Shown here: positions 62-7,083 of the stretch, piece by piece
Layout: every line of letters starts with the position of its first letter
Numbering within the stretch: position 1 is the stretch's first letter
Source: an uncultured Bacilli bacterium
GTDB lineage: Bacteria; Bacillota_I; Bacilli_A; RF39; UBA660
Length of the DNA: 64,000 bases
Reading direction: 5' to 3'
Assembly: GCA_944363715.1 (NCBI GenBank)
Contig: CALVUX010000005.1
Coordinates: 1-64,000 of the forward strand
Notes under the pieces: model-generated
Database searches by the model: none
Told to the model about the DNA's origin: nothing
What the model saw: the letters and a program-made list of their open reading frames with translations, nothing else
Program-made: the position numbers and the translations under genes

Positions 62-1717
62 TTAGTTGCTATAACCTGTATTATTACCATATCTATCGAA
101 TTGCCCAGACATTAATTCTCCTACTCTTAATAAACCAACTTTGGCATTTGTAATTGATGTAGTTGTACTACTCATACTGGTATCTGTATATTTGGCAAGT
201 TTATATGACGTTCCACTTCCTACTGTTCCTAAATACCAAGTACTACTTTCCTCTATCATATCACTATAACTACTATCTACGTAACTTGTTAGATATTCTC
301 CATTTAAGAATGTACCTATTGTATTTGTACTTGAAAATGCTGTATTACTTCCAAAGGCACTTGTTATAAACTCCCCAGAACTTTTTAGTGGTTCTACACT
401 TACTATCTTTGTTCCTATTCCATTTTCGTGACTTACTATCCTGTATAGATTATTTTCTCCTGTTCCAAATTTTATATATTCTCCACTATATCTACTTGAA
501 AGGGGTGTTCCTGAAAGTTCTTTATCATTATCTCCGTTTAAGCGATATGGATTATCTATCGTTCCATTGCCATCTACAATTTTGACACTAGATTTTAGAT
601 TTATTGATGGCCGGACACCGTTCGCGTTCGAAGGACCACTGCTGCTCGCGCGACCATAGTAGCTGACATACCGAACGTTTGACGAAGAATATGGTGTTAA
701 TGTCCACCATCTAAGTCCATTATTTAAATAGCCATTAGTTCCTCCATTATTACTAGACTGATATTCATACATATTTAAAAGTCCTACTGCATCTGTTACA
801 GTTGTTGTTCCATTAGGTCTTGTTATACTTCCTAATGCTGTTGCATCCATTGTCGCATCCCATACTGCATCAGTCACAATAAAATTCTCATAATCTCTTA
901 AATTACCTAAGAAGCCATCTACACTTGTATCATTTAACCATTCTTCCATATAACTGCCTTCAAAGTTAGTTTGATTACTAGGATTGTATGAAATTGCACT
1001 TATATTCCATTGTGTTACTAATTTAGTTGTCTTAGCTTTTTTATTAACTGATACCGCTCTCCATAACTTTCCACTATACCAGATATAGTTATTTGGGTCA
1101 GTTCCTGTTATAAATGTATCTACTCCATCATCAAAGGTACTTCCATTTTCTCCTATATTCATCTTTATAACATCAGAAACAGGGCCTGTTAACTTAATTT
1201 CTTCAAACAAATGCCCATTACTAGGTAAACTTAAATCATTATAATCTAGCCCTACCCCTACTCCTAATGTAATTGTTACACTACTACTAGATTCATTCTT
1301 TACTCTTATCTTATATATATTACTAGAACCAGAACTACCACTTGCCGTTAAATTAGCACCTTTCTCCCCCATTGGTATATTTATTCCTTCTCATGTTTTA
1401 TAACCTACTTCTACACCACTAGGTAATTCCCCTTCATAATAAAAATTAAATCTTGCTTCTCTATTATTAGGATTAGATAAAGTTACTGTAAATTCTTTAG
1501 TTTCTTTCGCTCCTACTACTAACTTATTACTTTCTACATTATCTACAGTAAGCTTATACGTTAAATTACCTGTTACTATACTAATAGCATTACCCTTTTC
1601 TTTTGATACTGTAAACATGGCATAAGAAAAGTATCCTCCTAATATTAATAGAGTTACTATAATCATTACTATCATATATATTTTACTAAAACTTGTTTCT
1701 AATAATAACTTCTTCAT
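62..1717 (-). pseudogene. Membrane-anchored surface protein, paralogue 1, interrupted by an in-frame stop
   Basis: This is a second copy of the protein at 5010-6839. The N-terminal part (1391-1717, 108 aa) has a signal-anchor segment at about residues 13-33 and an Ig/camelysin-like stretch. It ends at a TGA at 1391-1393, and the same frame continues without a break from 1390 to the stop at 62. The corresponding position in the intact paralogue is sense and is not Trp. The rest holds a repeated domain resembling DUF6273, with NYIWYSGKLWRAVSV and NGVRPSINLKS motifs, plus a second copy that stops about 70 residues earlier than in the paralogue. About 80 bases at 611-690 are clearly G+C-rich, unlike the surroundings. 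It is either a pseudogene or a silent donor copy. The family assignment is by motif only. Confidence 0.75.
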
Positions 1718-1741: not shown

Positions 1742-1767
1742 AAAAAAGAATAGAATAATCCTATTCT
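1742..1767 (-). terminator. Terminator-like hairpin in the leader of paralogue 1
   Basis: On the minus strand AGAATAG, a 7-nt loop and CTATTCT form a perfect 7-bp stem followed directly by a T run. It lies only about 25 nt before the surface-protein start, which leaves no room for another promoter, so transcription of the gene must pass through it. The stop codon of the leader ORF at 1761-1850 lies inside the 5' arm. This architecture is repeated before the second paralogue and would suit attenuation, which is inference. Confidence 0.6.
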
Positions 1768-1850
1768 ACATTATTAAAGAAAGTAATATTATTACTTAAA
1801 TATTTATAAACTGTCATCTTTCGTATAGTATTTATAATACATTTACTCAT
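1761..1850 (-). CDS. Putative 29-aa leader ORF of surface paralogue 1
   Basis: An ATG at 1850 is preceded by GAGGG with 9-nt spacing and opens a 29-codon frame ending in TAG at 1761-1763, inside the 5' arm of the hairpin at 1742-1767. Its C-terminus reads SNNITFFNNVE. The leader of the second paralogue, if read with one G fewer in its G tract, ends SLNNTFFHYGLKE. The two leaders therefore look homologous and similarly placed. Whether it is translated is not shown by the sequence. The alternative is a chance frame in a duplicated leader. Confidence 0.4.
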   Translation of the reverse strand: MSKCIINTIRKMTVYKYLSNNITFFNNVE

Positions 1851-4984: not shown

Positions 4985-5016
4985 GCAAAAAGAACTAGAA
5001 TAATTTATCCTAGTTC
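4985..5016 (-). terminator. Intrinsic terminator of surface-protein gene 2
   Basis: On the minus strand GAACTAG and CTAGTTC pair as a 7-bp stem around an 11-nt loop, followed by TTTTT. The gene's own TAG stop is part of the 5' arm. Confidence 0.75.
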
Positions 5017-6839
5017 AATTTGAAAGGTTTTTGTAAAGTCCCTTCTCCATCCGTTATAACAATATTACTTTTTAGATTCATAGATGGTTGAATACCATAA
5101 ACATTCTGAGGACTAGTACCATATGCAGTACTACTGTTGTAAATATACCGTACATAAGTCGCACTATTTTTTGTTAAAGTCCAATAAGTAGATGTATTAT
5201 CTGTAATAGTATCGTTTATATAACCTTTTTTAAATTGTCCTGCCATTAACTCTCCAAACCTAAGTAATCCTACATTGGTTCTTGCTTGTGATGAAGTTAA
5301 ACTGCTCATAGAAGTATCTGTATATTTTGCCAATCTATAATTTACACCACTACCCACTGTTCCTAAATACCAAGTAGTATTACCTTCTATCATATTACTA
5401 TAACTACTTCCTACATAATTTGTTAGATATGTTCCATTTAAGAAAGTACCAATTGTATTATTGCCCGAAAATGTAACATTGCTTCCAAAAGCACTGGAGA
5501 TAAATCTACCCCCACTCTTTAATGGTTCTGCACTAGTTATTTTTGTTAAGCCACTAGTCTCATGACTTACTATTCTATATAAGGTGTTTTCTCCTGTTCC
5601 AAAAGTTATATATTCTCCACTATATCTTGTATTTAATAGTGTCCCTGATAAATCAGCATCAGCATCATTATCACCTTCTAAACGATATGGATTAGATTCT
5701 GTTCCATCTCCATCTATGATTTTAACAGTTGATTTTAGATTAATTGATGGTCGAACACCATTAGCATTTGTAGGACTATTGTAACTAGGATTACCATTAT
5801 TGTTAACATTATGCACATAAGTCGTACTATATGGTGTTAAAGTCCACCAGATAAGACCATTGTTTAAATAACCATTTACTGCTGTAGTGCCACTATAACT
5901 TGTTTGATATTCATATGAATTAAGCAAACCCACTGCATCGGTAACCATTGTGGTTTCTGCAGGTTTACTTGATGATGAAGTTAGGGTTGCATTCCATTTT
6001 GCATCTGTTACTATAAAATTTTCATAATCTCTTAAATTACCTAAGAAACCATCTACAGAAGTATCATTTAACCACATTTCCATATGACTATCTTCAAAGC
6101 CTGTACTACCGCTTGAATAATTAATTGTACTTATATTCCATTGTGTTACTAACTTTGTAGTCTTAGCATCATTATTTACAGACACTGCTCTCCATAACTT
6201 TCCACTATACCATATATAATTATTAGGATTTTCTCCTGTTATAAATGTATCTGTTCCATCATCATATGTATCTCCATTATTTAAATTATCTATAACAACA
6301 TCTGAAGCTAATGTACTTAGTTTCTCAAACAAATGCCCATTACTTGGTAACTCTAAATCATTATAATCTAGTCCTACACTTACTCCTAGATTTATAGTTA
6401 ATTCGCTATTAGAATTATTTTCTACCATTATCTTATAGATATTACTACTACCACTTGTACCATTTTTCTCTAAATTAACACCTTTCTCTTCTGGTAAAGT
6501 ATTACTTTCACAATCTAATATGTAACCTGCTTCTACATTATTAGGTAATTCTCCTTCATAATAAAAATTAAATCTTGCTATTCTATTATTAGGATTACTT
6601 AATGTTACTATAAACTCTTTACTACTATTAGGTTCTACTGTTAAAGTATTAGTTTCTTCTCCATCTACTTCTAACTTATAAGTTAAGTTCCCTGTTACTA
6701 TACTTATAGCATTACTCTTCTCTTTTGTTACTGTAAACATAGCATATGAAAAGTAACTTCCTAATATTAATAGAGTTATTATAATCATTACTATCATATA
6801 TATCTTACTAAAACTTGTTTCTAATAATAATTTTTTCAT
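5010..6839 (-). CDS. Membrane-anchored surface protein with two tandem DUF6273-like repeats
   Basis: A 609-aa protein. Residues about 12-33 form a signal-anchor helix, followed by SYAMFTV and an Ig/camelysin-like region (about 45-160) with SNPNNRIARFNFYYEGELP. Two related domains follow at about 190-400 and 405-609. Each contains an IWYSGKLWRAVSV or YITFGTGENTLYRIVS strand, a WTLT motif and an NGVRPSINLKS or YGIQPSMNLKS motif before an I.DG.GT..PY.L ending. This resembles DUF6273-type domains of clostridial surface proteins, which is motif-level evidence only. It is probably displayed on the cell surface. The paralogue at 62-1717 is broken. Its leader carries a small ORF with a G9 tract and a terminator-like hairpin (6869-6897), suggesting variable expression. 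GGAG lies upstream of the ATG. Confidence 0.8.
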   Translation of the reverse strand: MKKLLLETSFSKIYMIVMIIITLLILGSYFSYAMFTVTKEKSNAISIVTGNLTYKLEVDGEETNTLTVEPNSSKEFIVTLSNPNNRIARFNFYYEGELPNNVEAGYILDCESNTLPEEKGVNLEKNGTSGSSNIYKIMVENNSNSELTINLGVSVGLDYNDLELPSNGHLFEKLSTLASDVVIDNLNNGDTYDDGTDTFITGENPNNYIWYSGKLWRAVSVNNDAKTTKLVTQWNISTINYSSGSTGFEDSHMEMWLNDTSVDGFLGNLRDYENFIVTDAKWNATLTSSSSKPAETTMVTDAVGLLNSYEYQTSYSGTTAVNGYLNNGLIWWTLTPYSTTYVHNVNNNGNPSYNSPTNANGVRPSINLKSTVKIIDGDGTESNPYRLEGDNDADADLSGTLLNTRYSGEYITFGTGENTLYRIVSHETSGLTKITSAEPLKSGGRFISSAFGSNVTFSGNNTIGTFLNGTYLTNYVGSSYSNMIEGNTTWYLGTVGSGVNYRLAKYTDTSMSSLTSSQARTNVGLLRFGELMAGQFKKGYINDTITDNTSTYWTLTKNSATYVRYIYNSSTAYGTSPQNVYGIQPSMNLKSNIVITDGEGTLQKPFKLN

Positions 6840-6868
6840 CTTCTTACTCCTTCCATTATTACACTATA

Positions 6869-6897
6869 AAAAGAATAGAACTTGCCTCTATTCTTTT
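6869..6897 (-). terminator. Terminator-like hairpin in the leader of surface-protein gene 2
   Basis: AAAAGAATAGA and TCTATTCTTTT (minus strand) form a perfect 11-bp stem with a 7-nt loop ending in a T run. It lies 29 nt before the ATG at 6839, too close for a separate promoter. A TAG at 6888-6890 inside the 5' arm would end the leader ORF if the G tract were one base shorter. It matches the hairpin at 1742-1767 in position and sequence. Confidence 0.65.
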
Positions 6898-6927
6898 AAG
6901 CCATAATGAAAGAAAGTATTGTTTAAA

Positions 6928-6990
6928 CTACCATTTTGGTAATTTAAGCACCCCCCCCCAGGTAACATTTAGTGAACGTAATATTTTCAT
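6928..6990 (-). CDS. Putative leader ORF with G9 tract upstream of surface-protein gene 2 (20 aa as read)
   Basis: The ATG at 6990 has AGAAGG 7 nt upstream. The frame reads MKILRSLNVT, then runs through nine consecutive G residues and stops at TAG 6928-6930. With one G fewer (or two more) it would instead continue about 13 codons further and stop at 6888-6890 inside the hairpin, giving a product whose end resembles the leader at 1761-1850. The frame is supported by its ribosome site and by the paralogous leader, but translation is unproven. Confidence 0.4.
   Translation of the reverse strand: MKILRSLNVTWGGVLKLPKW
6951..6959. repeat. C9/G9 homopolymer tract
   Basis: Nine consecutive C residues on the plus strand (G9 on the transcribed side) in the leader of the surface-protein gene. 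Such a tract is very unlikely by chance in DNA this AT-rich. It is the kind of tract that slips during replication. It lies inside a small leader ORF, so length changes would shift that frame. Confidence 0.85.
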
Positions 6991-7083
6991 ACTTTTACCT
7001 TCTTTCTTTATCTTTATTCTACAACAAGTTTACCACAAAGAAAGTATGATAGGCAAGTAGTTTTATCTAACTAAAATAAGAGA

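Follow-up and report, generated by a model that had tools for sequence, protein, structure and literature searches.

The window analysed here is the whole 64-kb stretch of DNA (64,000 nucleotides, 29.5% GC). Its minus strand carries a gene (5010–6839) for a 609-aa protein with an N-terminal membrane helix and a DUF6273 domain, for which structure modelling gave a mean pLDDT of 43 and was poor except in one helix and one beta domain. Between 7003 and the ATG of this gene at 6839, the same strand holds, in order, a Shine-Dalgarno (SD) sequence, an ATG, a conserved block, a run of nine G, a hairpin, ACTTTCTTTCATTATG, a terminator-like hairpin and 29 nt of spacer. The run, C9 at 6951–6959 on the plus strand, is the only G or C run of six or more in the window. 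An earlier sequence-only reading had placed it within a leader ORF that has its own ribosome site, and this was borne out: the SD sequence AGAAGG (7003–6998) lies 7 nt 5′ of an ATG at 6990–6988, and comparison across loci delimits the 18-nt block GTTCACTAAATGTTACCT (6960–6977; genus consensus GTTTACAANNTGTTACCT) before the tract. A candidate leader promoter, a weak match, comprises TTGCCT (7056–7051), an 18-nt spacer and TGG-TAAACT (7032–7027).

The length of the G tract, the proposed slippage site, sets where leader translation ends. With G9, as assembled, the leader (6928–6990) encodes 20 aa (MKILRSLNVTWGGVLKLPKW) and stops at 6928, and with G10 it would stop at 6944. G8 or G11 gives a frame of 33–34 aa (MKILRSLNVTWGG(G)CLNYQNGSLNNTFFHYGLKE; 6888–6990), which ends at a TAG (6890–6888) inside the 5′ arm of the terminator-like hairpin. 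The stops at 6928 and 6888 are exactly those computed in the sequence-only reading. We call the frame that reaches the arm ON; the window locus is thus predicted to be OFF.

The terminator-like hairpin (6869–6897) has arms at 6897–6886 and 6880–6869 that form 12 bp with a U-rich 3′ arm, at −11.0 kcal/mol and a z-score of −5.5 against dinucleotide shuffles. Directly after the tract, a hairpin with an 11-bp core stem (6920–6950) may serve as a pause hairpin. The intervening ACTTTCTTTCATTATG (6902–6917) includes a TTNTTT motif, and its sequence is complementary to the ribosome-binding site (RBS) region of the surface gene, AATAATGGAAGGAGT (6846–6860). A simple terminator and promoter scan of the window missed both the hairpin at 6897–6869 and the leader promoter. 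In an Rfam search of the window only rRNAs scored at or above the gathering score, and the leader matched no known riboswitch or leader family.

The window belongs to a 1.40-Mb assembly in 39 contigs, and G8 was searched throughout this genome. Runs of nine or more G occur 12 times against 0.08 expected, each 9–11 G long, and all 12 lie in one context, GTTTACAANNTGTTACCT-G(n) or a close variant of the block. The tract is therefore not a chance run. Eleven of the 12 precede surface-protein genes: 10 stand before members of the window's surface family and one, on contig C4, before another membrane-anchored protein. The twelfth (L017, G000:C23:2586–2595) places the block and a G10 tract within a prophage-like tail and lysis region with a GH25-like lysin and small tail-like paralogues; a terminator was not detected there, and the following gene appears frame-broken in the assembly. 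Elsewhere in the genome the block with at most one mismatch was found only in two decayed or locked leaders, on C3 (where its TGG is now TGA) and C9 (where a G5 tract is in frame to the terminator), and once on C13.

Of 35 genomes of the genus, 23 contain the exact motif TGTTACCTGGGGGG, in as many as 19 copies each, and the backward control had no match; records with the motif are Candidatus Onthousia and Bacilli or Tenericutes MAGs. G9 tracts were found in 11 of the 12 genus genomes that lack the exact motif; of the tracts viewed, most belong to leaders built to this plan, in which the block is looser. Among 150 genera of the family (386 genomes sampled) the longer motif was found in this genus and in none of the others. 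Genes 3′ of the tracts are nearly all membrane-anchored. Membrane-anchored proteins are also frequent after G tracts in the family's other genera, but there the tract serves as a promoter spacer, falls within the gene or belongs to some other leader. G tracts at surface genes are therefore common in the family, and the attenuator is the form found in Onthousia. In two other genera (G044 and G046; L213–L218), G10–G14 tracts lie between TTGACA and the −10 element before membrane-anchored proteins, as in classical promoter-spacer phase variation. A different design was seen in G035 (L210–L211), where G10 is directly followed by TAAATATTTACCCCTCTTTTTTT or a similar sequence, and a terminator stem ahead of the gene could thus be formed by the tract itself. 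The exact motif was not found in IMG/VR, and viral spread of the motif was rejected on this ground.

We collected 105 distinct tracts, 7–13 G long by assembly consensus, of which 99 had a scored terminator. At 94 of these 99 loci the ON stop, that of the longest of the three frames, falls in the 5′ arm or loop of the terminator, the architecture seen in the window. Of the stops in the other frames, 97% lie at least 20 nt before the stem. The ON frame was open in all 75 distinct segments between the tract and ACTTTCTTT, many of them unrelated in sequence and length, and the other two frames in 0 and 1, compared with about 25 of 75 for shuffled segments. Because the tract loci are homologous, these counts are not independent, and a set of 14 mutually dissimilar representatives provides the conservative test. 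There the ON frame was open in 14 of 14 (null mean 4.9; never reached in 5,000 shuffles), and both other frames were closed above chance (P about 0.001). The last ON codons vary (HYGLKE, HYDIRAG, HSVRRIE and HYVTKRE before the stop), and the same terminator arm is even read in different frames; despite this, each of these ON frames stops in the terminator arm or loop. Tract-less and locked leaders also retain an open frame up to the terminator.

Pairing of the terminator stem is kept across 63 distinct hairpins, by T-A/C-G exchange (40 versus 20) and by G-U variants. Upstream of the terminator the post-tract hairpin is followed by TTTCTTTCAT, and TTNTTT, the NusG pause motif of B. subtilis (PMC9226507), is present after the hairpin. 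The post-tract hairpin with TTTCTTT is a candidate pause element. An extended −10 promoter lies about 25 nt 5′ of the SD sequence in most leaders of the genus; the window's own promoter is weak. The sequence-only reading had named a promoter between hairpin and gene as evidence against attenuation. A promoter scan found no match in the 29 nt of the window, and 59 of 77 loci are of the window's type, with the gene starting 18–59 nt past the terminator and no promoter. Elsewhere the objection has some force, as in 18 of the 77 the spacer is longer and contains what resembles a promoter (often TTGATA-17-TAATAT), and the switch there would control only part of expression.

Taken together, the locus is likely to be a phase-variable, translation-coupled transcription attenuator. 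The promoter upstream of the leader SD would give a transcript that begins with the short leader ORF, and slipped-strand mispairing at the G tract would set the leader frame. For one tract length in three (modulo 3; here G8 or G11) the ribosome would pass the post-tract hairpin and ACUUUCUUUCAUUAUG and stop in the terminator 5′ arm, where its presence would prevent the terminator, and probably the RBS-masking pairing, from forming, turning the gene ON. With the other two lengths translation would end early, usually at least 20 nt short of the hairpin; the freed ribosome would leave the terminator to form, turning the gene OFF. Random on/off switching of each surface protein is probably possible in this way, and with 11 such loci before surface-protein genes the population would be a mosaic of surface types. 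The anatomy, the frame logic, their conservation and the tract-length differences between near-identical loci (below) are read from the sequences themselves; from these we infer termination, read-through, the rate of switching and surface exposure.

The observation made in the sequence-only reading is thus confirmed, and was understated. Phase-variable attenuation of the surface gene, as it proposed, is supported at the sequence level by about 100 loci and by near-identical ON/OFF pairs. In its account of attenuation, the setting of the frame by tract length and the arrival of one frame at the 5′ arm hold across about 100 loci; the ribosome would more likely act by stopping in the arm than by stalling at the tract.

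In a related arrangement, the tract might gate mainly translation: ACUUUCUUUCAUUAUG would mask the RBS of the gene, a ribosome in the ON frame would unmask it, and the hairpin would be secondary, with the same switching at the DNA level. Pairing of ACUUUCUUUCAUUAUG with the gene's own RBS is stronger than with 98 ordinary RBSs (−10.3 versus −7.1 kcal/mol), the full leader folds accordingly, and B. subtilis vmlR unites pause, terminator and SD-masking hairpin in one leader (PMC9226507). This complementarity suggests a second, translational lock. As the main gate it is a serious possibility but somewhat unlikely, because the ON stop sits in the terminator arm, the pairing of that arm is conserved, any such pyrimidine stretch pairs with purine-rich RBSs, and the loci are related.

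Runs of G9–G11 could slip during transcription or translation too. If RNA polymerase slipped or ribosomes shifted frame in all cells, the result would be a fixed low ON leak and no heritable switching, and the many loci at G9 in one frame (41 of 99) are consistent with this. We consider it improbable in view of tract lengths that differ in the DNA between otherwise identical leaders. When representatives of different species were compared by their assembly consensus lengths, L088 (G11, ON) and L068 (G9, OFF) had leaders identical except for the tract, with upstream flanks 99.3% identical. L086 (G8, ON) and L120 (G7, OFF) differ in the tract and one upstream leader base (flanks 90–95% identical), and L093 (G9, ON) and L134 (G10, OFF) are identical around the tract (flanks about 84% identical). 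All three frames occur among the 99 scored loci, unevenly: 20 are predicted ON, 27 are one G short and 52 are two short or one over. The invariant tract length that the sequence-only reading had named as refuting its proposal is contradicted by these pairs and by the range of 7–13.

An ordinary condition-sensing attenuator that acts through leader translation, with the tract incidental, would account for the resemblance of the pause-like hairpin, TTNTTT and terminator to regulated leaders, and for a leader at 1850–1761 that has no tract. It is very improbable: leader peptides differ widely and contain no run of sensed codons, and the loci retain the G tract as well as the stops in both remaining frames. 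A role for the tract as promoter spacer, of the kind known from classical contingency loci, is scarcely credible even though tracts in G046 and G044 lie between TTGACA and −10 and the TTTACA of the block resembles a −35 element, because no −10 lies at a workable distance past the tract, most loci have a promoter upstream of the leader SD, and the open frame and stop placement would be left unexplained. The window tract does not lie between the −35 and −10 of the gene's promoter.

The conserved block is nearly fixed at synonymous positions, a fixation partly inflated by the collection of loci with the motif (genus-wide variants are looser), and at a minority of loci it is read in other frames, the different readings being LQYVTWGG, FTICYLGG and VYNMLPGG. 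Conservation of the peptide (LQxVTWGG) as its main cause was rejected on these two grounds. RNA pairing between the block and the post-tract segment was no better than in shuffles (mean z −0.33). The synonymous fixation, the several frames, the lack of pairing with the next segment and the absence of the block from the tract-less leader at 1850–1761 together tie the block to the tract itself, and it perhaps acts in slippage there. More tentatively, and with more doubt than confidence, GTTTACAANNTGTTACCT-G(n) might be a dedicated element that acts as a DNA or RNA signal to set tract slippage (or to let copies recombine), conserved at the nucleotide level whatever the frame, for a genus repertoire of randomly switched surface proteins.

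The tract-less leader (1761–1850, minus strand) lacks both G tract and block and runs in frame to a stop in its own terminator (MSKCIINTIRKMTVYKYLSNNITFFNNVE). By its sequence it is a fixed ON version, 5′ of a broken paralogue of the surface protein (62–1717, minus strand) that has two in-frame stops (TGA and TAA) and contains a GC-richer stretch resembling a retroelement variable repeat. Elsewhere in the genome (L173, G000:C11:59–3970) lies a textbook diversity-generating retroelement with a reverse transcriptase, a small accessory ORF, a template repeat and a DUF6273 target. Of the 28 A in the template, 13 are changed in its first variable repeat and 10 in its second; of the 61 other bases, the numbers changed are 0 and 1. 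The target is a paralogue of the window's surface protein and is not among the genes found 3′ of poly-G tracts, so the surface family seems to diversify by two different devices. For the window gene, diversification by this retroelement was rejected, as the C11 template gave no match. Two more variable repeats (L175, G000:C30:8155 and 8800), with a related but different template, belong to another paralogue. A second reverse transcriptase adjoins a 645-aa ATPase-like protein whose N-terminal domain looks variable (L170, G000:C6, 6859–8796 and 8847–9965, minus strand), and this may be a retroelement of another type.

Assemblies or reads are enough to tell which state is predicted for each locus. 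Metagenomes can thus be used to test for surface heterogeneity in uncultured commensals, and the natural ON/OFF pairs could serve directly as reporter designs. We found no description of a homopolymer attenuator or of this genus's system in the literature searched, outside which most subscription papers lay. The type of mechanism is already known; new here are the homopolymer version, the genus-wide multi-locus repertoire, the conserved cassette and the probable pause and RBS-masking elements.

Attenuation at pyrBI is set by nucleotide supply through pausing, whereas control here would lie in the length of a DNA tract. As in pyrBI-type attenuation of E. coli (cited in PMC4824070), leader translation into the terminator would suppress termination; in E. 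coli a stop codon close to the terminator lowers termination, which reaches its maximum once the distance exceeds about 30 nt (PMC4824070). The B. subtilis vmlR leader likewise has an upstream ORF, a pause hairpin with TTNTTT, an intrinsic terminator and an SD-masking structure, but answers antibiotic-stalled ribosomes and has no slippery tract (PMC9226507). In the pilus switch of Bifidobacterium breve, G-tract slippage also controls surface structures of a gut commensal (PMC9187656); there the tract is part of the first structural gene, where it fuses two ORFs, in contrast to the separate leader before a terminator described here.

The closest likeness is to pil1 and pil3 of S. gallolyticus, with a slippery repeat in a leader ORF that has its own RBS and a terminator before the surface gene (PMC3894217). 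Phase-variable attenuation by GCAGA repeats is established for pil1, where its dependence on translation was shown and mutants of the terminator were studied (Danne et al. 2014, PMC3894217); an out-of-frame change shifts the stop into or next to the terminator and transcription rises, and we propose the same logic here. The traits of pil1-type loci recur: the window tract is a slippery repeat within a leader ORF having its own RBS, structure and pairing conservation predict an intrinsic terminator between leader and surface gene, one frame ends in or next to that terminator and the others well before it, and repeat number varies among close relatives in the assembly comparison. Unlike the GCAGA pentanucleotide of the two pilus loci, the repeat here is a G homopolymer with a conserved 18-nt block, accompanied by a post-tract hairpin with TTTCTTT and an RBS-complementary segment, in up to 19 copies per genome across the genus. 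In the literature searched, phase-variable attenuation concerns two pilus loci of one streptococcal group; here, in a genus of uncultured gut Bacilli, it appears to operate a full repertoire of surface proteins.
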